DNA of 24,853 bases, taken from IMG/VR virus record IMGVR_UViG_3300006793_000264, positions 1 to 24,853 of that record; one strand, given 5' to 3'. The notes beneath the pieces were generated by a model. It saw only the letters and a list, made by a program, of their open reading frames with translations. It ran no database searches and was not told where the DNA came from. The stretch comes from a virus. Numbering within the stretch: position 1 is the stretch's first letter; the number at the start of each line of letters is the position of its first letter. This document shows positions 303 to 20,347 of this stretch, piece by piece. A program made the translations under genes and the position numbers.

Positions 303-875
303 ATGACACACACTATAGATATATCAAAACTAAATACAGCACATTATAATCCAAGAGATATTACAGAAAAAAATTATACAAAGTTAAAAATCAATATACA
401 GACATATGGTATTTTACAACCTTTAATAGTAAACAACCATAAGGACAGAAAGAATATTATTATAGGTGGACATCAACGATTTAGAATTGCAAATGAATTA
501 GGATATAAAGAAGTACCTGTTAGATATTTGTCTTTAAATTTACATCAAGAAAAAAAATTAAATCTTGCATTGAATAAAAACACAGGGCATTGGGATAAGG
601 ATATTCTTGCAAATGAATTTGAAATAGAACAATTGTTAGACATTGGATTTACAGAATTTGAATTAGGCATAAATGATTTTACAGAGCCGACATTTAAAAC
701 ATTTACGGCAAAATTATCAGAAGAAGAACATCAAAAAACAAAAGAAGTAATTACAAGAATAAAAGAGGCGAATGGCTATAATGATACACAGGCCTTTATG
801 CACATAATTCAGTATTTCTGGAAAGGCTCAAGTGTACGAGTAAACAACAATAAACATTTATATAAAAATGACTAA
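303..875 (+). CDS. ParB/Srx-fold (ParB-like nuclease domain) protein
   Basis: A 190-residue protein whose first ~110 residues have the ParB-like layout. There is an N-terminal motif with YNPR (15-18), then GILQPLIV (36-43), the core motif GGHQR (55-59), and VPVRY (71-75) after a helix ending in LGY. The GGHQR box corresponds to the CTP/nucleotide-binding motif (G-E/H-R-R) of ParB and of phage ParB-like domains. The C-terminal ~80 residues are charged and unassigned. Phage proteins of this type are often found next to or fused to DNA methyltransferases, and one lies two genes downstream. It probably acts with the modification cassette rather than in plasmid-style partitioning, because no ParA is visible. 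It starts the operon behind the TATATTTG box and overlaps the next gene by 8 bases. Confidence 0.75.
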   Translation: MTHTIDISKLNTAHYNPRDITEKNYTKLKINIQTYGILQPLIVNNHKDRKNIIIGGHQRFRIANELGYKEVPVRYLSLNLHQEKKLNLALNKNTGHWDKDILANEFEIEQLLDIGFTEFELGINDFTEPTFKTFTAKLSEEEHQKTKEVITRIKEANGYNDTQAFMHIIQYFWKGSSVRVNNNKHLYKND

Positions 876-1146
876 AGAAGAAGTAGATTTATTATTAAAA
901 AATTCAGAATTTCAATTTGCAAAAACAATGGCTAAACATCCACATAGTTATACTTTGTTGCATAAGCATTGGAACTATGACAAAAAAATTTGGTTTCAGA
1001 TGGTAGAATTTATTTGGAATAATAGTGTAAGAGAACATTGGAATTACGGACACTACTATAATTATTATTATGCAAATGGCTACAAATATTGGAGTATGGA
1101 TAAAACAATACTAACAACGGACTTGATAAACAGAGCAAAAGTATGA
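868..1146 (+). CDS. Small aromatic-rich conserved phage protein, function unknown
   Basis: A 92-residue protein with many Tyr, Trp and His. It begins with a KHPHSYTLLHKHW segment (24-36), continues with a WFQMVEFIWNN helix and a Tyr-rich run (GHYYNYYYANGYKYWSMD), and ends in TDLINRAKV. I recall short phage proteins of the same pattern (HPH-Y-T-L near the N-terminus, Y-WTMG then T-LINRA at the C-terminus) next to DNA methyltransferases and ParB-like genes. I know no function for them. The ATG overlaps the upstream gene by 8 bases, which suggests translational coupling. No membrane segment or metal-binding cysteines are present. Confidence 0.7.
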   Translation: MTKEEVDLLLKNSEFQFAKTMAKHPHSYTLLHKHWNYDKKIWFQMVEFIWNNSVREHWNYGHYYNYYYANGYKYWSMDKTILTTDLINRAKV

Positions 1147-1162
1147 CTATAATTTTTTTAAG

Positions 1163-1170
1163 TATATTAG
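1163..1170 (+). promoter_or_regulatory. Possible weak -7 element TATATTAG
   Basis: TATATTAG differs from the Bacteroidota -7 consensus TANNTTTG at one base. It lies in the 54-base gap before the methyltransferase gene, followed by a 30-base leader made almost only of A, T and C. No TTG is seen at the -33 distance. In such AT-rich DNA this match could arise by chance. Confidence 0.25.
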
Positions 1171-1200
1171 CACAAAAAAAAATAACAAAAATATAAACAG

Positions 1201-1836
1201 ATGGAAAATTTAGATAGACATATTATATGTCAGAAATCAATTGAGCAGGTAGATATACAACAATTATTGCAAGGACAAAAAGCAAAGATATTTTATTCAG
1301 ACCCCCCTTGGAGTGATGGAAATTTGAAGTATTGGAATACTATGCGTAATAAAATGTCTGGCACTACAGAAAAAAGTGTTATTACTTTAGAGGAAATGAC
1401 AAACACAATTAGAAATATAATTAAAAATCATATAGACGGATATGTATTTCTTGAAACAGGAAAAGCAGCAGTTGAATTTCAAAAAGAATTATTAGAGCCG
1501 GTAGTTAATGACATAAAAATATTTGATGTATTTTATCGCTCCGGTAGTAAATGGCTACCTAATAAAGTATTAGTAGGAGTTACAGATTCTAAACATAAAT
1601 TTGATATGGATTTGTCAGATGTTAAATGCGATGGATTTGTATTGCCTAATATGGTTTTTGAAAAAATTGCAAACAAAGGAGATATAGTCATAGACCCTTT
1701 TATGGGATTGTGCAATACAGGAATGGCTGCAATAAAATGGGGATTGACTTTTAGAGGAAATGAATTTAATAAAGTGAGGTACGAAAAAGCTAAAGCGTCT
1801 TTACTTAGGAATATCAAAAAATATGATAGAGCATAA
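1201..1836 (+). CDS. DNA methyltransferase (N6-adenine or N4-cytosine), motif order IV then I
   Basis: A 211-residue SAM-dependent DNA methyltransferase. The catalytic motif IV is DPPW (34-37, in FYSDPPW). The SAM-binding motif I appears near the C-terminus as IDPFMG (164-169), followed by GNEFN (186-190). The order IV, then a recognition region, then X-I is that of the beta class of amino-methyltransferases; DPPW fits adenine or cytosine amino methylation. The protein is short for this class, so its recognition domain (about 40-150) is compact. No restriction enzyme gene accompanies it. It is probably an orphan phage methylase that protects phage DNA or marks it for regulation or packaging. 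The A-rich leader lacks a Shine-Dalgarno site. Its end overlaps the SpeD-like gene by 14 bases. The target sequence cannot be read from the protein. Confidence 0.85.
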   Translation: MENLDRHIICQKSIEQVDIQQLLQGQKAKIFYSDPPWSDGNLKYWNTMRNKMSGTTEKSVITLEEMTNTIRNIIKNHIDGYVFLETGKAAVEFQKELLEPVVNDIKIFDVFYRSGSKWLPNKVLVGVTDSKHKFDMDLSDVKCDGFVLPNMVFEKIANKGDIVIDPFMGLCNTGMAAIKWGLTFRGNEFNKVRYEKAKASLLRNIKKYDRA

Positions 1837-2194
1837 ACATTTAATACTAAAAGGAACAATGGCTCAATCCCTCAAAAAAGGGGATGTGCATAATTTACTA
1901 AATGATATGGTAGAAGTTTTAGGTATGGAATTGATACAGGGAGTAAGAACAAATCCTAATGTAGGATATGAGGGTGGAGATTATCCTGGTGTAACCGGAT
2001 GCGCTTTAATTACTACAAGTCATATAGTATTGCATACTTGGGACAAAACAATGGATTTTCAGTTTGACTGTTATTCTTGCAAAGATTTTAATCCGGATGA
2101 TGTTATTGCTGAATTGATAACTTGGGGATTAAATGCAGAGCATAAAAAATATTTCGATAGAGAATATAAAATTATAGAAATAGATAATGAATAA
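1823..2194 (+). CDS. speD: S-adenosylmethionine decarboxylase-like (SpeD family) pyruvoyl enzyme
   Basis: A 123-residue protein, the usual size of the short bacterial SpeD form. The core reads PGVTGCALITTSHIVLHTW (55-73). Ser66 is at the expected self-cleavage site that becomes the pyruvoyl cofactor, and His71 and Cys86 sit at the spacing of the processing His and catalytic Cys of the Thermotoga enzyme (63/68/83 by memory, a constant shift of 3). Classical SpeD turns SAM into decarboxylated SAM for spermidine synthesis. The residue before the cleavage Ser is Thr65, where I recall Glu in typical SpeD (ESH). The substrate may therefore differ; phage SpeD relatives acting on arginine or ornithine have been described. 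The gene overlaps the methyltransferase by 14 bases and the IbrA-like gene by 8, inside the modification cassette. No spermidine synthase gene is in the window. Confidence 0.85.
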   Translation: MIEHKHLILKGTMAQSLKKGDVHNLLNDMVEVLGMELIQGVRTNPNVGYEGGDYPGVTGCALITTSHIVLHTWDKTMDFQFDCYSCKDFNPDDVIAELITWGLNAEHKKYFDREYKIIEIDNE

Positions 2195-3386
2195 TCACAA
2201 AGGCACTATAAGAGTATATAAAGGTAAAACTGTATATGAAGAATCATTGATTAGAATACGCAGATTATTTGATGACTTTCCAAATGTTGTTGTTGGATTT
2301 AGTGGTGGTAAAGATTCTACAGTATGTTTAAATTTAGCACTAAAAGTTGCAGAAGAAAAAAATCGATTGCCGTTAAGAGTAATCTTTTTAGACCAAGAGG
2401 CTGAATATGAAAACGTAATCAATTATATGCGAAATATTAGGGCTGACAAAAGAGTCGATATGTATTGGATTCAATGTCCTTTCAGAATAAATAATGCTAC
2501 AAGTTTTGAAAACCCTTGGTTAAATGCTTGGGAAGATGGTGGCGAATGGATGAGGGAAAAAGAGCCGGATTCTATAAAAGAAAACATATTTGGAGCAAAA
2601 GAGTTTTTTGATTTTTTTGATAGAATTGCAAATACATTATATCCGGATGAGCCTATGTGCTATATATCCGGAGTAAGAGCCGAAGAATCCCCTGCAAGAA
2701 CAATGGGATTAACATACGATGTTACATATAAAGACATCACTTGGGGTAAACGATTGAACGATGAAAAAAGACACTATACATTTTATCCTATTTATGATTG
2801 GAGTTACACAGATGTATGGAAAGCAATAGATTCTAACGATTGGGAATATTGTAAAATATATGATTTTTTATATCAAAAGGGAGTGCCTATTCGAGATATG
2901 CGAGTATCAAATTTACATCACGAAACGGCACTAAAGGGATTGCATAATCTACAAGAGATAGAGCCTAACAATTGGAACGCATTAACAAAACGATTAGACG
3001 GAATAAATACTACAACACAATTAGGGCACGAACAATATAAAAAGATTAAAGAATTGCCTTTTATGTTTAGCGATTGGAAAGAGTACAGAGATTATTTGTT
3101 AGACAATCTAATTACAGAAGAATATCATAAAGGATTTGTAAAGTTTTTTGCAAATATGGATAGGAAATATGCAGACATTGTAGATATAGATGATTTATAT
3201 AAAACACAAATAGCAAGTATATTGACAAATGATTTTGAATATACTAAAATGAAAAATTGGAAAAAGAATCCACAAGTAGGTACTTTTATAAAATGGACAA
3301 ACGGCATAAGAACAAGTCGTATGCTAAATAATAAATTTATTCCACAAGAAAATTTAGAACAAGAAATAATTGAATATGAAAAATAA
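2187..3386 (+). CDS. ibrA: IbrA-like PP-loop ATPase / PAPS-reductase-family protein (DUF3440 type)
   Basis: A 399-residue protein. The N-terminal half is a PP-loop (adenine nucleotide alpha-hydrolase) domain with the signature SGGKDS at 39-44, an LDQEAEY segment at 68-74 and GVRAEES at 162-168, as in PAPS reductases. The second half carries YPIYDWSYTDVW (200-211) and MRVSNLHHET (238-247) followed by LQEIEP, which I recognise from IbrA/DUF3440 proteins. In Escherichia coli IbrA acts with IbrB to activate immunoglobulin-binding protein genes of a prophage; the biochemical reaction is unknown to me. PP-loop enzymes adenylate substrates, often for sulfur transfer or reduction. The gene overlaps SpeD upstream by 8 bases and its IbrB partner downstream by 11, so the pair is probably translationally coupled. 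Confidence 0.85.
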   Translation: MNNHKGTIRVYKGKTVYEESLIRIRRLFDDFPNVVVGFSGGKDSTVCLNLALKVAEEKNRLPLRVIFLDQEAEYENVINYMRNIRADKRVDMYWIQCPFRINNATSFENPWLNAWEDGGEWMREKEPDSIKENIFGAKEFFDFFDRIANTLYPDEPMCYISGVRAEESPARTMGLTYDVTYKDITWGKRLNDEKRHYTFYPIYDWSYTDVWKAIDSNDWEYCKIYDFLYQKGVPIRDMRVSNLHHETALKGLHNLQEIEPNNWNALTKRLDGINTTTQLGHEQYKKIKELPFMFSDWKEYRDYLLDNLITEEYHKGFVKFFANMDRKYADIVDIDDLYKTQIASILTNDFEYTKMKNWKKNPQVGTFIKWTNGIRTSRMLNNKFIPQENLEQEIIEYEK

Positions 3387-3996
3387 ATTAGACAATCATC
3401 CTGTTAGTAATGTGCAATGGGTAGATAAAAATAAAGTACAGGCAAATGATTATAATCCAAACTCAGTTGCTAAAATAGAATTAAAGTTATTGCATACGTC
3501 AATATCACACGATGGCTATACACAACCTATAGTTACTGTTTATGATAAAGAAAAAGATAAATATATAATTGTAGACGGATTCCATAGACATTTAATATGT
3601 AGTACATATGATGACATAAGCGAATCTACAGGTGGAAAAGTGCCTATCGTAGTACTAAAGAAACAAATTAACGATAGAATGGCTAGTACAGTTCGACACA
3701 ACAGGGCAAGAGGTAAACATTCAGTTAAAGGAATGAGTAGTATGGTGTTTACAATGTTAAGCAATGGAATGTCAGACGAAGACATATGCAACGAGTTAGG
3801 AATGGAAGCACAAGAATTAATAAGATTAAAACATATAACCGGATTTAGTAAATTGTTTAAGGACACACCTTACAACAAAGCTTGGGAGACGGACAGGCAA
3901 ATTAACATAAGAAAATATTATAAAGAAAATGGAGAAGAAGCTACAAGAGAAAAGTTTAAACAAAGAGATTCAAAGGGTAAAAATTTCAAAGGTTAA
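3376..3996 (+). CDS. ibrB: IbrB-like ParB-domain protein, partner of the IbrA-like gene
   Basis: A 206-residue protein. I chose the ATG at 3376, which overlaps the IbrA stop by 11 bases; the frame could be extended to a TTG at 3370. The ParB-like fold is marked by VQANDYNPN (21-29), DGYTQPIV (46-53) and the nucleotide-binding-type motif VDGFHRH (66-72). A following helical part contains MASTVRHNRARGKHS (102-116), then an HTH-like segment (DEDICNELGMEAQEL). These blocks are those of IbrB, which occurs directly downstream of IbrA in the systems I know. The role may be DNA binding or nucleotide-dependent regulation. Its last 68 bases are shared with the next gene in another frame, and its tail (KQRDSKGKNFKG) is basic and probably disordered. 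Confidence 0.85.
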   Translation: MKNKLDNHPVSNVQWVDKNKVQANDYNPNSVAKIELKLLHTSISHDGYTQPIVTVYDKEKDKYIIVDGFHRHLICSTYDDISESTGGKVPIVVLKKQINDRMASTVRHNRARGKHSVKGMSSMVFTMLSNGMSDEDICNELGMEAQELIRLKHITGFSKLFKDTPYNKAWETDRQINIRKYYKENGEEATREKFKQRDSKGKNFKG

Positions 3997-4525
3997 ACCT
4001 TATTGGAGAAACGCAAGAAATAATACCGAAACAATAAAGCTGATAAAAGAATCTGTAACTAAATATGGATTCAATGGTACAATATTGGTAGACAAAAACT
4101 ATGTAATAATCACAGGACACGCAAGATATTCTGCATTAGTACAATTGGGATTTGAGGAAGTACCTGTTGAAATATCAACTTTAAACGAACAACACACAAA
4201 GGAATACAGAATATTAGATAATAAAATATCAGAAAAAACAGATTGGGTTACTGAAGAATTAATGATGGAAATAAGAGAGATTGGTAACATTGAACATATG
4301 CAGAAGTTTTTTAATGTAGACTTGGGAAGTTGGTTAGATGTATCTGTTGGAATAACGGCAGAGGATGTTACAGAGAAAGATGTAAACAAAGTTAAAGAGA
4401 ATTTAGATAATGCGTTTAAGGGTAAAGTAGAGGAAACATTAAATAATATGATAGAAATTACTTGTCCACATTGTCTTGAAACGATTGAAGTAACTCAAAA
4501 ACAATTAGAAGATAAATTAAAGTAA
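3929..4525 (+). CDS. ParB/Srx-fold protein with C-terminal CxxC knuckle
   Basis: A 198-residue protein with a second kind of ParB-like domain. VKISKVKPYWRNARNN (17-32) is the N-terminal strand and motif, ITGHARYSAL (61-70) is the nucleotide-binding-type box, VPVEI follows, and then ILDNKISEKTDW (95-106). This is the pattern of ParB domains fused to phage DNA methyltransferases, but here no methyltransferase domain follows. Instead the C-terminus has a charged linker and one CPHC knuckle (179-182), too little for a complete zinc ribbon unless it dimerises. The ATG at 3929 gives a 68-base overlap with the IbrB-like gene. No later Met precedes the domain, so this start is preferred. It may be an accessory of the methyltransferase at 1201. 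Confidence 0.75.
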   Translation: MEKKLQEKSLNKEIQRVKISKVKPYWRNARNNTETIKLIKESVTKYGFNGTILVDKNYVIITGHARYSALVQLGFEEVPVEISTLNEQHTKEYRILDNKISEKTDWVTEELMMEIREIGNIEHMQKFFNVDLGSWLDVSVGITAEDVTEKDVNKVKENLDNAFKGKVEETLNNMIEITCPHCLETIEVTQKQLEDKLK

Positions 4526-4526
4526 A

Positions 4527-4955
4527 ATGACAAATAGTGACGCTGAACAGGACAAACTAAAATCTGAATTAGAACAGGAGATGGTAGATGATTTGGCATT
4601 GGCTAATAATTTATACCCTGTAAAAAAACAAGAGATGCTAATGGCTTTGGAAAAATCATTAGGCATTGTAACACCGGCTTGTAAAGCAGTCGGCATTGCA
4701 CGACAAACGCATTACAGATGGCTAGGCGAAGATGAATTATATGCTAAGTTAGTTAAGGATGTGCAAATGACAAAAAGAGATTTTACAGAATCTGCAGTAT
4801 TTCAATTGGTACAAAAAGGGAATGTACAGGCAACATTATATGCAAATCGAATCAATAAAGACAGAGGATATTCTGATAGTATGGAGCATACCGGAGCAGA
4901 GGGAGAGCCGATTAAATGGGTAGAAATAAAAACATATGAGGGGAAAGAAGAATAG
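4527..4955 (+). CDS. terS: Terminase small subunit-like DNA-binding protein
   Basis: A 142-residue protein with a central helix-turn-helix (about 47-66): IVTPACKAVGIARQTHYRW, the pattern of small terminase and homeodomain-like DNA-binding segments. An acidic N-terminal helix precedes it and a C-terminal segment (DFTESAVFQLVQKGNVQATLYANRI) with an RGY motif follows, which I associate with small terminases. TerS recognises phage DNA and loads the large subunit for headful or cos packaging. Position directly before the HNH and large-terminase genes strongly supports the call. The ATG follows the previous stop by one base, so packaging genes appear to be co-transcribed with the upstream modification cassette. 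Confidence 0.8.
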   Translation: MTNSDAEQDKLKSELEQEMVDDLALANNLYPVKKQEMLMALEKSLGIVTPACKAVGIARQTHYRWLGEDELYAKLVKDVQMTKRDFTESAVFQLVQKGNVQATLYANRINKDRGYSDSMEHTGAEGEPIKWVEIKTYEGKEE

Positions 4956-5184
4956 TCAAAAGCAAATGTTCTTTGAGATATGGGATGAAAGAGAACATAT
5001 ATGCGAAAATTGTCAAAGGCATTTAGGAATGGAGCCGTTAGCACAATATTTTAGTCATATAAAACCAAAAGGATTATATCCGGAATTGAAATTTGTAAAA
5101 AGCAATATTCAGTTATTATGTTTTGATTGTCATTATGCTCACGACTTTAAAGGTAAAGAAGCATTTGACAAATTGAAAAGATGA
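4936..5184 (+). CDS. HNH endonuclease of the packaging cluster
   Basis: An 82-residue HNH protein. Two zinc knuckles, CENC (23-26) and CFDC (62-65), flank the catalytic core. The nuclease His is probably His41 (in FSHI), with Asn57 (KSNIQLLC) and His66/His69 (CHYAHD) completing the H-N-H pattern. HNH proteins beside terminases are known to assist the large terminase in cos or maturation cleavage in several phages, and the position between the two terminase genes fits that role. It overlaps the small terminase by 20 bases and the large terminase by 4 (ATGA junction). A homing endonuclease is less likely because the ORF is tightly integrated between two packaging genes. Confidence 0.85.
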   Translation: MRGKKNSQKQMFFEIWDEREHICENCQRHLGMEPLAQYFSHIKPKGLYPELKFVKSNIQLLCFDCHYAHDFKGKEAFDKLKR

Positions 5185-12661: not shown

Positions 12662-12792
12662 TGGCTAAAAAGAAAAAATTAAATAGTAAGAATCCAAAGT
12701 ATATGGATAATGTTGAGGAAGCAAAAATCAAAAGAGAGATTTTAATTAAAAATATTAATGGAGTAAAAATAAAAGCAGTTTGGTATGAGTAA
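12661..12792 (+). CDS. Lysine-rich small ORF (43 residues) coupled to the tape measure gene
   Basis: The ATG at 12661 overlaps the previous stop by one base (TAATG) and the frame ends at 12790-12792. The 43-residue product starts MAKKKKLNSKNPKYM and continues with a helical charged part (EEAKIKREILIKN), ending GVKIKAVWYE. It overlaps the tape measure ATG at 12785 by 8 bases, so both junctions are translationally coupled. Without it there would be an unexplained 123-base gap in a packed operon. The first 18 bases are identical to the micro-ORF at 8306. Function unknown; a small tail or DNA-contacting peptide is possible. Confidence 0.6.
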   Translation: MAKKKKLNSKNPKYMDNVEEAKIKREILIKNINGVKIKAVWYE

Positions 12793-15700
12793 GATATCTA
12801 AAATAATTGACATAAAAATTGTAGGAACGCAACAACTACAAGAGCTAGAAGCAACGATTTTAAAGACGGAGCAAAAGCTAAAAAATATGACACAAGCCGG
12901 TAAGAAAAATGCCGGTATGCAAAAAATCCACGCAAAGAATATTGTCAATACTAAATTAAAATTAAAGCAATTACGACAAGAACGTAATGCTGAAAGCAAG
13001 GCTATATTAAATTCACAGAAAAATTTAGTAAAATTAGACGGCTCATACAATTCGTTAGTAAAAAGGAATCAACAATTATTAGCGAAAATGAAAGCAAGTA
13101 CAGGTGGGATAAACTCCAACAGTACTGCAATGCAAAAAATGAAAGCAGAGTATTCTGCGAACAATGGAAAACTAAAAGAATTTGATAAATCATTAGGAAA
13201 CAATTTTAGAAATGTAGGTAATTATGGAAGTGCGTTAGGTGGTGTCAAAGAAAAATTGGCTGCAACAGGACTTGCAATTGGTGGAGCAATAGTAGCTTTC
13301 CAAGCGATGAGTAGAGTCGTACAATCAATTACAGGAGATTTTGGAGAATTTGAAAAAGGATTCACAAATGTATTATCCCTTATGAGTTCGGATGATATCG
13401 CAAAATTTGGTAGTACGTTAGAAGCCGGAGCAATCGAAGTAATGAAAGAGTTTGGTCTGGAGATTAACGATATGAATAAAGCATTATTCGATGCAGTATC
13501 AGCCGGAGTACCTGCCGGAGAATCAATTGAATTTTTACGAGTAGCATCTCAATTAGCAGTAGGTGGTGTTACAGATTTAACAACTGCAACGGATGGTATT
13601 ACTACAGTAATGAATGCCTTTGGATTGGAAACGGCAAATGCTGAAGAAATTGCAAGTGCATTTTTCTCTGCACAAAAATTTGGTAAGACAACTGTGGAAG
13701 AATTATCACAGACAATCGGTACAGTTGCTCCGATAGCAAAACAAGCCGGATTGGGATATAAAGAATTATTGTCTGCAATGGCAGTATTGACTAAACAAGG
13801 ACTAAATACAAACATAGCAACTACGGCATTAAAAGGAGCAATTGGAGCATTAGCAAAACCTGCTGATAGTGCAAAAAAAGAATTTAAACGATTAGGAATT
13901 GATTTTGGTATTAGTGCATTAAGAGGGGAAGGATTTATGAAAGTCCTAAAACAAATATCAGTCGCTGCCGAAAAAGATTCAGATGCATTAACAAAATTGA
14001 TACCAAATGTAAAAGCCCTTACCGGTATTGGAGCATTAGGTACTGCACAATTAGAAGATTACGATAACATACTACAACAAGTAAATACTGATTACGGAGA
14101 AAATAGTAGTTTGGCTGCAGCCGTTGCTATGCAACAGGACACATTGAAAGAAGCTACAAACCGATTAAATGCTGAATATTCGGCACAAAAAATATTATTA
14201 GGTAGAGAATTGAAACCGATATTTTCTGCTATACTAAATACATTATCATTCTTAATTAAAAATTTTACAAATATAGGAAAGGCATTAGGAACAGGAGTTG
14301 TTGCTTGGACGGCATATAGTGTTGCAATTGCAATAGGTACTGCAAGAAGCAAAGGGTTTTCATTAGCAACAATTGATTTACGAGGAAAAATTAGAGCCCT
14401 TAATGCTACAATAATGAAAAATCCGATTGCATTATTAGTGGCTGCAATAGCCGGAGCAGTTACGGCTTACGTTGCTTGGAATCGTCAATTGACTGATTTA
14501 GAAAAAAATCAAAGAAATATTGATAACATAAACAAAAATGCAGAAGCATCCTCATTAACACAGGTAAATAATATACAGAATTTATTATCATTGGCTAGGG
14601 ATGAATCACAGGCAACAGGATTAAGGGAACAAGCAGTTGCAAAATTAAATGAAGAAGTTGATGAGCTAAACGGACTTTTAACTTTAGAAGAAATAAACAC
14701 ACAGGCAACAACAGATGCTATCGAAAGAAATACTAATAAAATATTAACCAACGCAAAAGTAAAAGCTAGTCAATCAAAATTAGAAGAATTATTTGCTGAA
14801 CAATTAGAAGTTGAGGGAAAATCTTTAGACCAAAATGCACGATGGTATGATTATTTAACTGCAGCAATAACATCACAGGGTAGTGTTATGAAAGGTACTA
14901 CTAAGTTACTTACATTAGGAGCAAAACGTAGATTTGAAGATATTGATGGATTAACAAAACAACAAGAAGAAATTGCTAATTATATATTATCATTGACGGC
15001 AGAAAGTCTTGCAGTTAAAGAGGGAATGACGTTAAGAGATATTGAAACAAAAAAATACGGATTAACTGTAGTTGGATTGCAAAAGAAATTAAAAGATTTA
15101 AAAGCAATTGAAGAAACAAGTGTCGATGGAAGTCAAACGCAGGACAAAATTAGGAAAGCAATTACAAAAACAACAAGAGAATTAACAAAAGCAATTGAAG
15201 AACAAAATGGCTCTACATTATCAAAACAACAAGTAGATAAATTACAAGAGAAAACATTAAATCAAATTAGTGCTAAAAAAGCTGAATACAATAAGTTATT
15301 GAAAGATGAAATTGTTAATAGTGATAATTATAAAATAATACAAAAAGAAATAATCCGATTAAATGAAAAGGCTAAAGAGGGGGAGATAAAAACAACAGTT
15401 GCTAAAGAAAATAAGATTGATAAAATCAATGAAGAAATTAGTACTCTTGAAAATATGGAAAAAGTTTTGGAGGGTAAAGAGGGTGTTGAAATTGAGGCTA
15501 CTAAAAATTCTATAAAATTAGCACAGGCAAGATTGCAATTGATATTTGCCGAAGCCGAAGCCGGTAAGGAATTGGATGCAACGGCATTGGACAGAATTGC
15601 TGAATTAAAAACCAATATACAAGATTTACAGAATACTTTAAAAGGTGGCGATGGCGATGAGGGTAGTATATTGGATGGTATTTTTGGCGATGGCGAAGAT

Positions 15701-16534
15701 GGACAGGAACGATTTGAAAATACTATGGATGGCTTAAATGCTATAAATGGATTGATAACCGAAAGAGCAAGACTGATACAAGCAGAAGCCGATGCGAAAG
15801 TCAAAAACCTTAATACCGAAGAAGCAAAGGAGAAAAAAAGATTAGAGGATTCAACACGATTTAAAAGGCTAACGACTGAACAACAGGAAAAAGAATTGTT
15901 GGCTATTGAAGAAAAATATCAAACACAGAGGGATGTAATAGAAAAAGATGCGTTTGAGAAAACTAAAAAAATGCAAAAACAACAAGCAGTTATAGCCGGA
16001 GCAATGGCTATTATGCGATTGGCTGCAGATGTACCAAAAGGAGATTTTGCAGTAATGACAGGAATATTAATCGCTGCTCAAATAGCAATGACTAAAATGC
16101 AATTAGATACAATTGACAAAGCTACATTTGCGTTAGGTGGAATGATTCCAAAATTTTCAAAAGGTGGCGAATTAAGTGGTGGTGGAGTGTTCTCCGGAAA
16201 ATCACACAAACAGGGTGGTATCAAATTCCATACAGGTGGTAGGTTAATGGAAGCAGAGGGTGGCGAAGCAATTATAAACAGACAAAGTACGGCTATGTTT
16301 AGAAATGAATTGTCAGCAATTAACGAAGCCGGTGGTGGAGTTAAATTTGCAGATGGTGGTATCACACAGGCATTGGATGGACAAATTGCACAAAGACAAG
16401 ATAGTATTTTGAACGATGACGATATTGGAAGAATTGCAAGTGCATTGAATACACAAGAAGTTGTAGTAACAGAACAATCTGTGAGTAGTACACAAAGAAG
16501 TGTTATGGTACAGGAAAGTAGAATGAGTTTTTAA
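12785..16534 (+). CDS. Tail tape measure protein (TP901 type)
   Basis: A 1249-residue protein. An N-terminal coiled-coil stretch (about 15-100) precedes the TP901-type core (about 185-390), with runs such as GEFEKGFTNVLSLM, FDAVSAGVPAGES and KGAIGALAKPADS. Hydrophobic segments at 501-520 and 546-565 may insert into or cross the host membrane during DNA ejection. A long helical charged region (about 570-1100) follows, then a Gly-rich C-terminus with FALGGMIPKFSKGGEL and HTGGRLMEAEGGEA, typical of tape measures. It sets tail length; at about 0.15 nm per residue (an approximate known rule) this gives a tail near 190 nm. The tape measure is far from its probable chaperone pair. Confidence 0.9.
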   Translation: MSKISKIIDIKIVGTQQLQELEATILKTEQKLKNMTQAGKKNAGMQKIHAKNIVNTKLKLKQLRQERNAESKAILNSQKNLVKLDGSYNSLVKRNQQLLAKMKASTGGINSNSTAMQKMKAEYSANNGKLKEFDKSLGNNFRNVGNYGSALGGVKEKLAATGLAIGGAIVAFQAMSRVVQSITGDFGEFEKGFTNVLSLMSSDDIAKFGSTLEAGAIEVMKEFGLEINDMNKALFDAVSAGVPAGESIEFLRVASQLAVGGVTDLTTATDGITTVMNAFGLETANAEEIASAFFSAQKFGKTTVEELSQTIGTVAPIAKQAGLGYKELLSAMAVLTKQGLNTNIATTALKGAIGALAKPADSAKKEFKRLGIDFGISALRGEGFMKVLKQISVAAEKDSDALTKLIPNVKALTGIGALGTAQLEDYDNILQQVNTDYGENSSLAAAVAMQQDTLKEATNRLNAEYSAQKILLGRELKPIFSAILNTLSFLIKNFTNIGKALGTGVVAWTAYSVAIAIGTARSKGFSLATIDLRGKIRALNATIMKNPIALLVAAIAGAVTAYVAWNRQLTDLEKNQRNIDNINKNAEASSLTQVNNIQNLLSLARDESQATGLREQAVAKLNEEVDELNGLLTLEEINTQATTDAIERNTNKILTNAKVKASQSKLEELFAEQLEVEGKSLDQNARWYDYLTAAITSQGSVMKGTTKLLTLGAKRRFEDIDGLTKQQEEIANYILSLTAESLAVKEGMTLRDIETKKYGLTVVGLQKKLKDLKAIEETSVDGSQTQDKIRKAITKTTRELTKAIEEQNGSTLSKQQVDKLQEKTLNQISAKKAEYNKLLKDEIVNSDNYKIIQKEIIRLNEKAKEGEIKTTVAKENKIDKINEEISTLENMEKVLEGKEGVEIEATKNSIKLAQARLQLIFAEAEAGKELDATALDRIAELKTNIQDLQNTLKGGDGDEGSILDGIFGDGEDGQERFENTMDGLNAINGLITERARLIQAEADAKVKNLNTEEAKEKKRLEDSTRFKRLTTEQQEKELLAIEEKYQTQRDVIEKDAFEKTKKMQKQQAVIAGAMAIMRLAADVPKGDFAVMTGILIAAQIAMTKMQLDTIDKATFALGGMIPKFSKGGELSGGGVFSGKSHKQGGIKFHTGGRLMEAEGGEAIINRQSTAMFRNELSAINEAGGGVKFADGGITQALDGQIAQRQDSILNDDDIGRIASALNTQEVVVTEQSVSSTQRSVMVQESRMSF

Positions 16535-16551
16535 TTTATAAAAAAAAAGAT

Positions 16552-16743
16552 ATGTTTAATTTATTTACAGATATGGATGAAAGAAAACGCAGGATGAAAA
16601 TATGTTTATCTTGCGAATTTAAAAGCGATAAATATTTATTGATATTTGATGGGGCAGGATGTTCTATATGCAAATGTCCTTTATCGTCAATAACTAAAAT
16701 TAAGGCAAAAGATTGTCCTAAAGGGAAATGGATGTTGAGTTAA
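16552..16743 (+). CDS. Small Cys-rich zinc-ribbon-like protein
   Basis: A 63-residue protein with six cysteines: C18, C21, C37, C40, C42 and C55. The CLSC (18-21) and CSIC (37-40) pairs are spaced like a zinc ribbon; the segment CKCPLSSITKIKAKDCPKGKW resembles small metal-binding proteins of tailed phages that I recall from structural gene clusters. A role as a zinc-stabilised virion or assembly factor is inference. The A-rich leader (16535-16551) lacks a Shine-Dalgarno site. It overlaps the next gene by 16 bases. Confidence 0.65.
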   Translation: MFNLFTDMDERKRRMKICLSCEFKSDKYLLIFDGAGCSICKCPLSSITKIKAKDCPKGKWMLS

Positions 16744-17003
16744 TATATAAAGAAGCTAATGCAGTACCGGATATTTTGAGAGGTAAAATCCATTATGCGT
16801 TTAATAACAATGCTAGATATTTTAGCAAATATCATAAGCATAGCAATAAAGAAATGAAAAAATTATTTTCGCATTACAACAATCTTTTTTCTTCATTGGA
16901 AAATTTTGAGGAAGACGAATATAGATGCGAGGGATGTATGGATACAGTTGTAAAATTTTGGAGTTTTGTTTTATTTGATATATGGGAAAGAGAAATAATC
17001 TAA
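16728..17003 (+). CDS. Hypothetical phage protein with a CxxC pair
   Basis: A 91-residue protein that I do not recognise. It is predicted helical, with a basic middle (FSKYHKHSNKEMKKLF), an acidic stretch (ENFEEDEYR), one CEGC pair (67-70) and an aromatic C-terminus (VKFWSFVLFDIW). It starts inside the end of the Cys-rich gene (16-base overlap) and runs 22 bases into the next gene, so all three small genes are probably translated together. No function is proposed. Confidence 0.6.
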   Translation: MDVELIYKEANAVPDILRGKIHYAFNNNARYFSKYHKHSNKEMKKLFSHYNNLFSSLENFEEDEYRCEGCMDTVVKFWSFVLFDIWEREII

Positions 17004-17302
17004 AAAATGTATTAAGATTTTGCGATGTCCTTACGGAAGAAATACATTTGCGATATGGCGATAATCCAACAGTAAAAGATATTTTATTTCATTTATCATC
17101 TAACGGAACGATTAAGCCTGTTACATTAAGAAATTATTTAATAATCCAAGATTTTTATAAAAAACTAAAAATTAATAATGGGCATATGAATCATACCTTT
17201 ATGGATATTAGTATAGAATACAATTTATCGGAAAGACAAATTCAAACAATTATATACGAGTATCAAAAAAAATTACAGGTTAAAAATAATATATCGCTAT
17301 AA
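16982..17302 (+). CDS. Small protein with possible C-terminal helix-turn-helix
   Basis: A 106-residue basic protein. The C-terminal part, about 71-95 (HTFMDISIEYNLSERQIQTII), has the layout of a helix-turn-helix: a first helix, a short NLSERQ turn and a recognition-like helix. This recalls Mor/C-type or sigma region 4-type segments. The N-terminal half (LRFCDVLTEEIHLRYG, DNPTVKDILFHLSS) is helical and could dimerise. It ends 59 bases before the protease gene, just ahead of a promoter-like box, so a regulator of capsid gene expression is an attractive but untested idea. Other small DNA-binding roles are possible. Confidence 0.5.
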   Translation: MGKRNNLKNVLRFCDVLTEEIHLRYGDNPTVKDILFHLSSNGTIKPVTLRNYLIIQDFYKKLKINNGHMNHTFMDISIEYNLSERQIQTIIYEYQKKLQVKNNISL

Positions 17303-17331
17303 ACTTCGTAATGCTATTAAAAATAATTTAG

Positions 17332-17339
17332 TATTATTG
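17332..17339 (+). promoter_or_regulatory. Possible capsid-unit promoter, -7 element TATTATTG
   Basis: TATTATTG differs from the Bacteroidota -7 consensus TANNTTTG at one base. It is the only promoter-like box in the 59-base gap before the protease gene, with 22 bases to the ATG at 17362. Strong expression of capsid and tube genes would need a promoter here. No clear -33 TTG is present. Confidence 0.35.
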
Positions 17340-17361
17340 CATAAAACAAACAAATCTTACT

Positions 17362-18360
17362 ATGAAAGAAATTCTAATATATGATGTTATTGGCAGTTTT
17401 GATTTAACTGCAAAGAATGTAATTGAGCAACTGAATGATGCAAATGGGGAAGACATTCTTGTTAGGATTAATTCAGTTGGTGGCGATGTATTTGAGGGAA
17501 TGGCGATGTACAACGCACTAAAAAAATATGAGGGAAATGTAAAAGTAGAAATTGAAGGGTTATCAGCATCTATGGCTTCAATCATAATGTTAGCAGGAGA
17601 TGAAGTAACGGCTTCTGAAAATTCATTAATTATGGTACACAATCCATCTGCAGGGGTTATGGGAGAATCTAAAGATTTAAACAAACGTGCAGAATTATTA
17701 GATAAAATGAAGACTCAAATGGTTACAATTTACAAAGGTAAATCATCAATTAGCGAAGAAGAAATTATTTCTATGATGGATGAGGAAACTTGGTTTACGG
17801 CTGATGAAGCAAAAGAAGTTGGATTAATCGATAATGTAACAGAGGCAATAAAAGTCGCTGCACATTTTGACTTGAAAACAATAACTAATAAAATACCGGA
17901 ATGGGTATCAGAAAAATATACTAATCAAAATAATACTGAAATGGAAGAAGTAAAAAATATGTTTGAGGAATTAAAATCTGCAATAGCAAGTTTTGTAAAT
18001 TCAAAAACAGAAGAAAATAAAACTGACGATGTTATAGTAAATATCGCAGATGATGAAAGCATTAAAGAACAAATCGTAGGATTCTCTGAAAAATTAGGAG
18101 AGTTAGAAAACGTAAATACGGAATTGGATGCAAGCAAATCTTTAATCGCAACGATGGAAGAAACTATTGCGTCAATGGAAGTAGAAAAATCAGAATTGGA
18201 AGCTGAAATAAATAAGCATAACGCAACACCATCTGAAATAGAAGAAACTGCAGACCCTGTTGTAACGGAATCGATTGAAAGAGAATCAAGTGTTTGGGAT
18301 GATGCCGGTAGAACTCTTGTTGATGGAGATGGTGCTTTCAATTTTACAAAAAAGAAATAA
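17362..18360 (+). CDS. ClpP-like prohead protease with C-terminal scaffold-like coiled coil
   Basis: A 332-residue protein. Residues ~1-165 are a ClpP/SppA-fold serine protease: the nucleophile is probably Ser70 in GLSASMAS, the His is His93 in MVHNPS, and an acidic residue near Asp140 (SMMDEETWF) lies where ClpP has its catalytic Asp. This protease cleaves scaffold and capsid precursors during head maturation. From about 185 the sequence becomes acidic and coiled-coil-like (FEELKSAIASF, then SEKLGELENVN and MEETIASMEVEKSELEAEI), as expected of an internal scaffold. An in-frame ATG at 17941 could produce the scaffold alone. The gene sits directly before the major capsid gene. Confidence 0.85.
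   Translation: MKEILIYDVIGSFDLTAKNVIEQLNDANGEDILVRINSVGGDVFEGMAMYNALKKYEGNVKVEIEGLSASMASIIMLAGDEVTASENSLIMVHNPSAGVMGESKDLNKRAELLDKMKTQMVTIYKGKSSISEEEIISMMDEETWFTADEAKEVGLIDNVTEAIKVAAHFDLKTITNKIPEWVSEKYTNQNNTEMEEVKNMFEELKSAIASFVNSKTEENKTDDVIVNIADDESIKEQIVGFSEKLGELENVNTELDASKSLIATMEETIASMEVEKSELEAEINKHNATPSEIEETADPVVTESIERESSVWDDAGRTLVDGDGAFNFTKKK
17941..18360 (+). CDS. Possible nested scaffold protein from an internal start
   Basis: The in-frame ATG at 17941 (Met194 of the protease ORF) follows an A-rich stretch and begins MEEVKNMFEELKSA, exactly where the protease domain ends and the coiled-coil part begins. The product would be 139 residues, acidic and helical. Phage lambda makes its scaffold Nu3 from a nested start within the C protease gene in the same way. 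No Shine-Dalgarno site is visible, which in this phage is normal. The nested product is inference. Confidence 0.4.
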   Translation: MEEVKNMFEELKSAIASFVNSKTEENKTDDVIVNIADDESIKEQIVGFSEKLGELENVNTELDASKSLIATMEETIASMEVEKSELEAEINKHNATPSEIEETADPVVTESIERESSVWDDAGRTLVDGDGAFNFTKKK

Positions 18361-18387
18361 ATTAATAATAAATAAAAAAGAAGAAAA

Positions 18388-19383
18388 ATGGCGAATTTAA
18401 TTACAAATTCATTGAGTTATACTCAAGAAGATGCTCAAAAATATTTTCTACAACCATTATTCGTACAGAATAGTGCTTTAGATTATTTTGAGATAATGAC
18501 GAATGTGAAGTCATCACAAAAACTAGACAAGTTTTCTACATTAGATAAAATCACAAAAGCTGAGGCTTCTGGATTTAATGCTGCGAGTGGTGTTACATAT
18601 ACGCAAAGAACAATATCTGTTGCAAGAATGGAAGCAGAAGTTGAACAAGCAGGTGGAGCATTTTTTAATACAGTAAAAGGTGAATTACTAAAATTAGGAT
18701 TAAACAAAGATGATATTTCTGGAACAGTTATCCAAACTATCGTTGCTGACATTATGCTAAGAGGAGTAAAAAGAGATTTAGAAAGACAATTATGGTTTAA
18801 TGATTCTGCATCAGGAAGTGCTGATTACAATCAGTATGATGGTATCTTTAAGCAATTAGCAGGTTTACCGGCAGGACAAAAATTAGCAATCGCTTCCGGA
18901 GCATTGGCAGCAAATGTAGCTAAAGCAGAATTTCAATCAATGATTGATGCAATGCCTAACGAGGGATTAGAGAACAGAGCTGATTTAGTATTTTTTGCTT
19001 CTCGTTCATTATGCGATAACTACAGAGCAACATTAGGAGCAGGTGGACAAGAGTTAGCATATTTATCATCTGTAAATGGAACACAATCTTTGGCTTACCA
19101 AGGTATTCCGATTGTAGAAATGGCTCAATGGGATACGCATATAGCATCTGACGCAGCATCTACTGCTCCATCATTGAATACAGTTGCAAATGATTTTGAT
19201 GCTCATATTGCAGTATTGACAGTTAAAAATAACATTGTTATTGCTACTGATTACAATGCAGTAAGTGGTGCTGATTTATGGTACAATAAAGATGAAAAGT
19301 TAAATAGATTTAGATTTGAATATGTTATTGGTACAAACTTCAAGAATACTGAATTAACAGTAACTGCAGATTCTAACTCATAA
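18388..19383 (+). CDS. Major capsid protein (HK97 fold)
   Basis: A 331-residue protein with the features of an HK97-fold capsid. A helical N-arm (SLSYTQEDAQKYFLQPLF) precedes an E-loop-like region (SQKLDKFSTLDKITKAEASG). A long spine helix (DDISGTVIQTIVADIMLRGVKR) is followed by the P-domain and A-domain segments with ADLVFFASRSLCDNYR. The C-terminal strands are DLWYNKDEKLNRFRFEY and VIGTNFKNTELTV. It follows the protease and precedes the tail tube gene. Hundreds of copies form the icosahedral shell. The leader (18361-18387) is strongly A-rich, the translation-initiation style of Bacteroidota. The family call is well supported by context. Confidence 0.85.
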   Translation: MANLITNSLSYTQEDAQKYFLQPLFVQNSALDYFEIMTNVKSSQKLDKFSTLDKITKAEASGFNAASGVTYTQRTISVARMEAEVEQAGGAFFNTVKGELLKLGLNKDDISGTVIQTIVADIMLRGVKRDLERQLWFNDSASGSADYNQYDGIFKQLAGLPAGQKLAIASGALAANVAKAEFQSMIDAMPNEGLENRADLVFFASRSLCDNYRATLGAGGQELAYLSSVNGTQSLAYQGIPIVEMAQWDTHIASDAASTAPSLNTVANDFDAHIAVLTVKNNIVIATDYNAVSGADLWYNKDEKLNRFRFEYVIGTNFKNTELTVTADSNS

Positions 19384-19414
19384 TCGAATATTAACTTAAA
19401 AAAATAAAAATAAA

Positions 19415-20002
19415 ATGGGATTACTTACGAAAGGACATATCATTGCTTGTAGCGATAGAAATCGTAGAGGTGGTATCAAATCAATATGGCTAGGCGAAGT
19501 TGCAAACATCACAGGTGCAACTGCAGCGGCTCCCCACTCGTATTCTGCAATAGCAGGATTCAGTACAGGTGGAAGTACATTGGTGTACAAATTTGAATTT
19601 GATAGAGAAACTGCATACTTTACGGCTAACGCAACAAGAGAAAATGGCTCTACAGTTGTAGATGCTGAGGTTGGATTTACTGTACCAAAAATTACAGAAG
19701 AAATTCAAGCTAGATTAGAGGAACTAAAAGGTACTTGTGGATTATTTGCAATCGTTGAAACTTTTGCAGATGATGGAGCAGCAACTCCGGTTACTTATAA
19801 ATTTGTTATAGGATACGATGAAGTATTTACTACTGAATCATTCCTTGACTTTTTAAGTGGAGAGCAAAACTCCGGAACGGCTCTTCAAGACCCTAACGAA
19901 ACTCAAGTTAAATTAGCTTGTAAAATGGCTGAATACCCAAGAGAATTTACAGGAAATATTACGTCTGAAACACCGGCTGATAATTCATTCTTCTTATCAT
20001 AG
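19415..20002 (+). CDS. Major tail tube protein
   Basis: A 195-residue strand-rich protein with segments LVYKFEFDRETAYFTANAT, STVVDAEVGFTVPK and a domain ending TYKFVIGYDEVF. This pattern fits the tube proteins of siphophages, which polymerise in hexameric rings around the tape measure. It directly follows the capsid gene, behind an A-rich leader, and is closed by a strong terminator, as expected for one of the two most abundant virion proteins. The C-terminus (EFTGNITSETPADNS) is flexible-looking. An alternative would be another beta-sandwich virion protein, but no other tube candidate is in the window. Confidence 0.75.
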   Translation: MGLLTKGHIIACSDRNRRGGIKSIWLGEVANITGATAAAPHSYSAIAGFSTGGSTLVYKFEFDRETAYFTANATRENGSTVVDAEVGFTVPKITEEIQARLEELKGTCGLFAIVETFADDGAATPVTYKFVIGYDEVFTTESFLDFLSGEQNSGTALQDPNETQVKLACKMAEYPREFTGNITSETPADNSFFLS

Positions 20003-20030
20003 GGGGTATAAAAAAATAGTGTTTGTATTT

Positions 20031-20075
20031 AGAAAGGCAGGGTGCTTCGGATTATACCAAGCCCCTGCTTTTTTT
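20031..20075 (+). terminator. Rho-independent terminator after the tail tube gene
   Basis: GCAGGG (20037-20042) pairs with CCCTGC (20063-20068). After a one-base bulge, GCTT (20044-20047) pairs with AAGC (20059-20062), and GG pairs with CC around an ATTATA loop. Seven Ts follow (20069-20075), and flanking A and T bases can extend the stem. This is the most GC-rich hairpin in an AT-rich window and ends the capsid/tail tube unit. Confidence 0.85.
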
Positions 20076-20086
20076 CTATTTAAATT

Positions 20087-20347
20087 ATGAGTTGTAATTG
20101 TAACAAAGAAAAAAATAAAAATTTAAACGAAAAATTAAATCTTATTATGAAAAAAAATGTAACTTACAAACTAAAAAAAGAGTGGGATGTTGGCTCTTAT
20201 TTTTTATTTGGTGGTAGTAAAATATATGTGGATTCACTAACACAGGAACAGATGAAAAGATTATTTAACAATGGATTAGAACACATAGAAATAATAGAGG
20301 AAAAACCAACAAACACAAATGACAAAAAGAAAAAATACAAAAAGTAA
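20087..20347 (+). CDS. Small hypothetical protein upstream of the portal gene
   Basis: An 86-residue lysine-rich protein. It starts MSCNCNKEK with a CxC pair, and a second in-frame ATG at 20147 (Met21) would give a 66-residue form beginning MKKNVTYKL. The middle, KKEWDVGSYFLFGG then IYVDSLTQEQMKRLF, looks like a small alpha/beta domain. The C-terminus is basic and repetitive (NTNDKKKKYKK). I do not recognise the family. It begins just after the terminator and overlaps the portal start by 29 bases. Confidence 0.6.
   Translation: MSCNCNKEKNKNLNEKLNLIMKKNVTYKLKKEWDVGSYFLFGGSKIYVDSLTQEQMKRLFNNGLEHIEIIEEKPTNTNDKKKKYKK

Follow-up and report, generated by a model that had tools for sequence, protein, structure and literature searches.

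A stretch of viral DNA of 24,853 nucleotides (IMG/VR record IMGVR_UViG_3300006793_000264, hereafter the window) carries, within a compact cassette, a gene for a pyruvoyl decarboxylase of the SpeD family that overlaps the gene of an enzyme with the fold of DNA amino-methyltransferases (MTases). Comparing the sequences of this pair with those of their relatives, we consider it probable that the two proteins bring about an aminopropylation of phage DNA that depends on decarboxylated AdoMet (dcAdoMet), a metabolite so far known chiefly for donating aminopropyl groups when polyamines are made. SpeD would decarboxylate S-adenosylmethionine to dcAdoMet, and the MTase-fold enzyme (1201-1836), whose gene overlaps that of SpeD and is probably co-translated with it, would take dcAdoMet instead of AdoMet, moving a 3-aminopropyl group onto an exocyclic amine (N6 of adenine or N4 of cytosine) in the DNA of the phage. 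What the virus would gain is probably camouflage against restriction or other DNA-targeting defences, an amine handle decorated by other enzymes of the cassette, or both. SpeD is paired with an altered MTase in considerably more than 100 phage contigs, which suggests that aminopropyl, not methyl, groups are probably placed on their DNA.

The initial annotation had described, at 303-4525, a seven-gene cassette with a DPPW MTase, SpeD, IbrA/IbrB and two further ParB-like proteins, and both the open reading frames and the domain matches agree with it. All seven genes are on the same (+) strand, in the order ParB1, g2, MTase, SpeD, IbrA, ParB2/IbrB and ParB3, most of them overlapping their neighbours by 8-68 bp, the exception being a 54-bp gap 5′ of the MTase gene. 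A promoter-like box, TATATTTG, can be read from the sequence at 288-295. The features are as follows:

303..875, + strand: ParB1, a ParB/sulfiredoxin-fold protein (ParB_N, 5.5e-12; best PHROG phrog_498, ParB-DNA-methyltransferase fusion)
868..1146, + strand: g2, a 92-aa conserved companion domain (motif FAKTM..PH...YKYW.M...NRA)
1201..1836, + strand: DNA amino-methyltransferase-fold enzyme, proposed DNA aminopropyltransferase (structure match, residue 172)
1823..2194, + strand: SpeD, class 1b pyruvoyl decarboxylase, proposed source of dcAdoMet (PF02675, AdoMet_dc, 5.2e-12)
2187..3386, + strand: IbrA, PP-loop PAPS-reductase-like protein with DUF3440 (phrog_2302, 1.1e-84; PF01507; PF11922)
3370-3996 (open reading frame, ATG at 3376), + strand: ParB2/IbrB-like protein (phrog_2159, 2.6e-71)
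3929..4525, + strand: ParB3, third ParB-fold protein (ParB_N, 4e-6; phrog_620, 3.1e-34)
4527..4955, + strand: terminase small subunit, TerS (phrog_4044, 1.8e-6), the cassette boundary, outside the modification unit

Directly 3′ of the cassette follow TerS (4527), an HNH gene (4936) and TerL (5181), and TerS occupies the same position in loci L001 and L002. The gene order is identical in L002/L003, with protein identities of 69-89%, and L026 retains most of it at 24-66%; being conserved in this way, the arrangement is not due to chance. The search for conserved gene order that had been suggested for this cassette thus finds the genes together beyond this genome, and L002/L003, L025, L026 and others rule out a pairing peculiar to it.

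The MTase of the window has a weak match in Pfam (N6_N4_Mtase, 3e-5). Its AlphaFold model (pLDDT 93.9) retrieves with Foldseek, at E <= 0.001, DNA amino-MTases, among them M1.HpyAVI (4.4e-11), CcrM (2.0e-10) and MboIIA, and this predicted structure firmly places the enzyme in the beta class of that group. The DPPW motif, at residues 34-37, is invariant across 38 homologues. Motif I reads DPFMGLCNTG, with N172 at the position of the AdoMet carboxylate, in alignment with T200 of M1.HpyAVI. In the latter enzyme T200, S198 and H168 contact the AdoMet carboxyl (PMC5173035), and it is this same carboxylate that SpeD removes. The window MTase lacks the expected FxGxG with a carboxylate-contacting residue at the T200 position: it reads FMGLCN, the second glycine being replaced by cysteine, with asparagine at residue 172, which is mostly tyrosine in SpeD-less relatives.

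It is to this residue that SpeD is linked in the family of the window enzyme, the type-A MTases, which were collected by motif IV and not by motif I. Column 172 has the strongest association with SpeD, ranking 1 of 204 alignment columns: tyrosine is found there in 0/16 SpeD-linked enzymes versus 43/55 SpeD-less ones (Fisher 9.5e-9, uncorrected for relatedness). On a tree built without the motif-I region the 16 SpeD-linked rows are spread over six clades, and tyrosine is absent from each, the residues being N, N, L, F, N and N. Two observations count against the proposal, namely that 12 of the 55 SpeD-less enzymes are also without tyrosine at 172, and that L001 and L025 have SpeD-linked MTases of another subtype without the N172 change. 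In an independent-pairs test on the type-A tree about 2.6 pairs agree and 0 disagree, with only four usable pairs, so few that significance is unreachable. A scan for the asparagine variant gave 13 loci, with SpeD present in 10/10 of those having enough upstream DNA; this is no independent confirmation, because the contigs largely overlap the first type-A set.

A similar coupling is seen in Stutzerimonas phage ZRG1 and Croceibacter phage P2559S, where the SpeD gene overlaps that of a ParB-DNA-MTase fusion. These two fusions, 38.9% identical to each other, align along their length with ordinary ParB-DNA MTase fusions (phrog_498), from which the SpeD-linked ones differ by FAGD[TS]VFG in place of FAGGSVRG and by the overlapping SpeD gene. 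Motif I is D[TC]FAGDTVFG in ZRG1 and P2559S, versus DP[FW][AC]GG..R in seven SpeD-less relatives. Among the matches listed, SpeD stands <=2 kb from 113/126 ParB-MTases of the FAGDTVFG form, with 102 overlapping, and accompanies 45/47 of their clusters at 70% identity; beside the canonical FAGGSVRG controls it is found in 0/118 of the matches listed, in a scan that restricted serine and arginine codons to the TCN and CGN families. As the SpeD-linked variant is a single clade, only one origin can be credited to it. E62, S63, H68 and C83 are conserved in every one of the 113 SpeD partners, and P71 in 112 of them.

The SpeD of the window scores 46.5 bits against PF02675, above the gathering cut-off of 25, and retains the equivalents of S63, H68 and C83, involved in self-processing and catalysis; threonine and aspartate replace E62 and P71. 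The five residues make up the signature of AdoMet decarboxylases (AdoMetDC), Pro71 separating these from arginine decarboxylases (ADC) (Li 2023, PMC10407285). The two marks are not decisive, because the validated AdoMetDC of phiN3 is likewise without both, and an AdoMetDC assignment from the Pro71 mark alone was dropped on that account. The protein clusters with pelagiphage-type SpeDs. That of pelagiphage HTVC201P acts on arginine and related phage SpeDs decarboxylate ornithine, and SpeD (gp67) of Croceibacter phage P2559S is an AdoMet decarboxylase, which brought spermidine back in an E. coli strain without speD (PMC9992855). AdoMet is the putative substrate of the window enzyme. A DNA MTase adjoins SpeD in the window and in L001, L002/L003, L025, L026, L122, L134, L137, L440, L442, L444, L445, L464, L483, L491, L505, L509 and L511. 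SpeD does not sit beside MTases by default, since 75/79 of the loci collected by SpeD similarity have neither such an MTase nor IbrA nearby; this figure, together with the 0/118 controls among the matches listed, rules out chance placement.

We may ask whether polyamines, rather than DNA, are the destination of the SpeD product. SpeD could be an arginine or ornithine decarboxylase, or feed a host spermidine synthase, and so provide polyamines for packaging, next to an ordinary methylase with which it would merely be co-regulated near the terminase. The phage SpeDs with ODC or ADC activity (PMC9992855), the missing E62 and P71, the pelagiphage-type clustering and the terminase genes abutting the cassette all fit this scenario, which we nevertheless judge unlikely: it leaves unexplained why, in each of two MTase families, the presence of SpeD goes along with an altered AdoMet motif, and the scarcity of such MTases or of IbrA in the SpeD-similarity loci also weighs against it. 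Very improbable, in our opinion, is a role of SpeD in depleting AdoMet as an anti-restriction measure, in the manner of phage SAM lyases, with an adjoining MTase adapted to low AdoMet. Phage SAM-degrading enzymes are known counter-defences (PMC7877911), and the study of phage CmoA brings up SAM depletion as one of its side effects (PMC12783734); yet the loss of a carboxylate-contacting residue, or the gain of a loop aspartate, is unexpected if AdoMet is to be bound more tightly, and the SpeD gene goes with a single MTase variant, which it usually overlaps.

Parallels to the aminopropylation that we propose exist in known systems. In spermidine synthase (SpeE), an aminopropyltransferase of MTase-like fold fed with dcAdoMet by SpeD, Asp103 of the cofactor loop (motif I) binds the dcAdoMet amine; this aspartate favours dcAdoMet and decides between it and AdoMet, and the D103I change results in a weak methyltransferase activity (PMC3725402). 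Here, in contrast, the partner has a DNA amino-MTase fold, and no SpeE is found in the annotations of ZRG1 or P2559S, nor by domain search in the window cassette. The CmoA-CmoX-CmoY system, which makes carboxymethylcytosine in Synechococcus phage S-B43, resembles the present one in that a SAM analogue produced by the phage (Cx-SAM, from CmoA) is used by a DNA MTase homologue, CmoX; the transferred group is there a handle for an ATP-dependent enzyme, and ParB-domain proteins are often nearby (PMC12783734). CmoX is however a C5-cytosine enzyme with SPPC and the Cx-SAM-binding Arg350, features absent from the window enzyme, an amino-MTase with DPPW (SCPPY in the ParB fusions) for which the proposed cofactor is dcAdoMet from SpeD. 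The S-B43 study reports no CmoA-associated counterpart at N6-adenine or N4-cytosine, and the words 'decarboxyl' and 'aminopropyl' are absent from it (PMC12783734). In the papers searched we found no described dcAdoMet-dependent DNA modification, and no IbrA-ParB DNA modification.

Were this proposal true, dcAdoMet would also be a cofactor for DNA modification, a group of phage genes regarded as 'auxiliary polyamine genes' would become DNA-modification genes, and the N6 of adenine or the N4 of cytosine would bear a positively charged amine, a natural handle for DNA labelling. Phages P2559S and ZRG1, being isolated, make aminopropylation directly testable. They also help to sort out the guess of the initial annotation, a nucleic-acid modification joining polyamine or aminopropyl chemistry to a PP-loop enzyme, with recognition by ParB domains: the aminopropyl part gains from the comparative coupling of SpeD to the adjacent MTase, and the PP-loop part finds no support in the form given, IbrA being dispensable for the pair because in both phages SpeD accompanies a ParB-MTase and no IbrA gene adjoins them. 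The recognition role given to the ParB domains would likewise be a putative one.

IbrA belongs to a wider platform with swapped neighbours: glycosyltransferase-like proteins, GNATs, SpeD, several methyltransferases and a SET domain. The window protein matches PAPS_reduct (2.9e-17) and DUF3440 (4.3e-9) in Pfam, with a short match to the PAPS-reductase-like domain of FAD synthase; in an alignment with 7 homologues, SGGKDST and other motifs are invariant, and no cysteine is. With the DndC phosphorothioation enzyme it shares the PP-loop and the PAPS-reductase family, but a DndC-like identity was rejected, given 32 bits against an equivalog cut-off of 290.4 and the lack of an invariant cysteine. 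As in the known IbrA/IbrB pair, a DUF3440 PAPS-reductase-like protein (phrog_2302) stands beside a ParB protein (ParB2, phrog_2159; ParB_N 2.6e-4, under the Pfam cut-off). ParB2 lies immediately 3′ of IbrA in most relatives, and the pairing is retained in most of 89 loci; unlike the known pair, that of the window sits inside a larger cassette, whose modification enzymes are interchangeable. ParB1 keeps its position in L002, L025, L026 and many IbrA loci, and ParB3 is found in many, not all, relatives.

A larger hypermodification can be imagined on this basis, in which IbrA, as an ATP-dependent adenylating enzyme, would form a platform with ParB2 and g2, SpeD and the MTase being interchangeable tailoring enzymes acting on its product and not on the unmodified base. 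We regard this as possible, if somewhat unlikely. It agrees with the variety of genes that relatives have between g2/ParB1 and IbrA, where a GT-like protein, a GNAT, SET-g2, class I MTase-g2 or SpeD may stand, and with the fusion of the g2 domain to several of these enzymes, its partners being GT-like, SET and class I MTase domains as well as SpeD; it sits less easily with the SpeD and ParB-MTase pairs that occur without adjacent IbrA or g2. This scheme overlaps with ours, as the aminopropyl step could hold in both. A broader view of DNA aminopropylation, in which we place about as much belief as doubt, would make it a widespread and previously unrecognised phage modification with at least seven origins (one in the ParB-MTase fusions, six in type A), through recruitment of SpeD and remodelling of the site that receives the AdoMet carboxylate; within IbrA cassettes it would be a single interchangeable module in a combinatorial platform for DNA tailoring, built on ParB, g2, IbrA and IbrB.

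The GNATs of related loci were considered as homologues of Mom and rejected (hhalign probability against Mu Mom, 0.2%). For g2, no match appeared in Pfam, PHROG or NCBIfam, and its AlphaFold model is confident (pLDDT 93.4), yet a structure search of the PDB gave no significant match. The swappable enzymes beside IbrA suggest that more undescribed modifications may exist. The g2 gene (868-1146), which the initial annotation had not singled out, is itself a recurrent part of the cassette, with 26 homologues aligned.

The seven-gene cassette proposed by the initial annotation at 303-4525 is borne out: within the 24,853-bp virus record all seven ORFs are present on the + strand, overlapping or almost touching, in the order ParB1, g2 (a companion protein), a DPPW DNA methyltransferase (MTase), SpeD (pyruvoyl decarboxylase family), IbrA, ParB2 (IbrB-like) and ParB3, and directly 3' of ParB3 come the terminase small subunit, an HNH protein and the terminase large subunit. 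The closest counterparts of the large subunit are those of Flavobacterium phage 11b and Cellulophaga phage phi10:1, which makes a host among the Bacteroidota probable. The small HNH gene (4936-5184) overlaps both terminase genes between which it lies, and the structural genes at 12785-21635 are in an unusual order, with a tape-measure-like gene upstream of the others:

12785-16534, tape-measure-like gene
from 17362, head protease
from 18388, virion structural protein
from 20319, portal

It is fairly probable that the cassette encodes a SpeD-coupled DNA aminopropyltransferase. SpeD would convert AdoMet into decarboxylated AdoMet (dcAdoMet), the aminopropyl group of which the MTase-like protein would transfer to DNA; this is the simplest reading of what is observed, namely gene linkage, fold and motif covariation, from which we infer the transfer, its target base and its function. 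The modification hypothesis of the initial annotation is supported in part, in this sharper form. The known phage system CmoA-CmoX-CmoY follows the same principle, using another analogue and another class of enzyme; the study describing it reports no CmoA-associated counterpart for N6-adenine or N4-cytosine (PMC12783734).

Conservation of gene order, which the initial annotation had proposed to check, was found in other contigs. Two near-identical ones representing a single phage type, L002 and L003, have the same cassette order (69-89% identity), the match extending to the exonuclease upstream and the terminase downstream. The order is largely kept in L026 (ParB1-g2-MTase-SpeD-IbrA-ParB2-terminase; identity 66% for MTase, 53% for SpeD, 45% for IbrA). 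L001 is 97-99% identical from SpeD through terminase, with a different MTase (25%) and a glycosyltransferase (GT)-like upstream gene.

Stutzerimonas phage ZRG1 and Croceibacter phage P2559S, both isolates but with different hosts, show a second arrangement, in which the 3' end of a ParB-DNA-MTase fusion gene overlaps a SpeD gene, adjoining terminase genes; the pair lacks IbrA, and no SpeE (spermidine synthase) was found in the annotations of either phage. Within the phage collection the two ParB-MTases are mutual best matches (38.9% identity over 484 aa). The P2559S SpeD belongs to a set of phage proteins that gave E. coli lacking speD its spermidine back, which marks it as a genuine AdoMet decarboxylase (PMC9992855). 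In both fusions motif I is D[TC]FAGDTVFG, as against DP[FW][AC]GG..R[GA] in seven SpeD-less ParB-MTases. When viral and genome contigs were scanned, blind to SpeD, for DNA encoding FAGD[ST][VI]FG, 126 ParB-MTase ORFs bore it among the matches listed; within these, 113 had SpeD within 2 kb (overlapping in 102), as did 111 of the 116 whose contigs extend 400 bp or more downstream; clustering at 70% identity gave 47 groups, 45 of them with a SpeD-linked member. A control scan by the same method found SpeD near none of 118 FAGGSVRG ParB-MTases among the matches listed. Among the SpeD partners, the catalytic residues Ser, His and Cys are retained, along with Glu62, in all 113 and Pro71 in 112, and MTase and SpeD divergence correlate (Mantel rho 0.39, p <= 0.0005). 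When motif I is excluded, the ParB-MTases linked to SpeD group in a single clade, and the family, though widespread, therefore counts as one event. Judged from the motif register, counting along FxGxG, the Gly-to-Asp change would fall on the position equivalent to S198 of M1.HpyAVI. The cofactor loop of spermidine synthase has an Asp that binds the amine of dcAdoMet and presumably repels the carboxyl of AdoMet; the D103I change yields a weak methyltransferase (PMC3725402). Close to the ZRG1 pair lies a gene (L183:12041-12640) annotated 'Nmad5 family putative nucleotide modification protein'.

The window's MTase has a weak Pfam match and a confident model (pLDDT 93.9, from an alignment of 38 sequences). 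As its Foldseek matches at E <= 0.001 are DNA amino-MTases, such as M1.HpyAVI, CcrM, MboIIA and M.BceJIV, its expected substrate would be an exocyclic amine of DNA. Among relatives gathered with motif IV patterns, not motif I, residue 172 has the strongest association with SpeD of 204 alignment columns: Tyr occupies it in 43 of 55 SpeD-less enzymes and in none of 16 SpeD-linked ones, which have Asn (11), Phe (3) or Leu (2). In a tree built without this region the latter fall into six clades, none with Tyr172, pairs being too few for significance in a formal independent-pairs test. Residue 172 lines up with T200 of M1.HpyAVI, which together with S198 and H168 contacts the carboxyl of AdoMet (PMC5173035). 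The position that tracks SpeD most closely is thus the one in contact with the very group that SpeD takes off. In L001 and L025 the MTase belongs to another subtype, without the N172 signature.

Glu62 and Pro71 are absent from the window's SpeD, which clusters with SpeDs of pelagiphage type, some of whose kin decarboxylate arginine or ornithine (PMC9992855). Both residues are also missing from phiN3 SpeD, a validated AdoMet decarboxylase, so the window's enzyme may yet act on AdoMet, and the change at residue 172 of the MTase argues for that substrate. In Microcystis phage MaAM05 (L186), a pair of neighbouring SpeD homologues, only one of them bearing the AdoMetDC signature, stands next to speE and may form with it a phage pathway combining ornithine/arginine decarboxylase and spermidine synthesis.

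Across 89 IbrA-type loci, ParB2 lies directly 3' of IbrA in most, and ParB1 and g2 lie upstream in many close relatives. The g2-IbrA interval varies (MTases, GT-like proteins, GNATs, SpeD, class I MTases and others), SpeD being present in eight loci, at differing positions and from differing lineages. The mobile domain g2 is fused in relatives to SpeD, GT-like, SET or class I MTase domains, and for that reason looks like an adaptor; its AlphaFold model is confident, with no family hit and no significant PDB match found. It occurs at:

window 868-1146 (+ strand); L025:4582-5481; L121:5294-6004; L110:4578-5375; L483:3306-3950; L511:2761-3387, g2 (FAKTM..PH..)

L444 has both SpeD and a GNAT, which, speculatively, would fit acylation of an introduced amine. 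In a second group of IbrA loci (L162-L181), a helicase-like gene and conserved proteins of ~250-290 aa (clusters c17 and c18, no convincing Pfam hit found) lie directly 5' of IbrA. In L103-L159 the position next to IbrA, on its upstream side, is taken by several GT-like families, two GNAT families, a TylF-like O-MTase, class I MTases, SET and an unassigned family, c16, a diversity that suggests many undescribed modifications. A single 644-aa ORF (L126:2854-4788) joins an N-terminal glycosyltransferase-like domain to IbrA.
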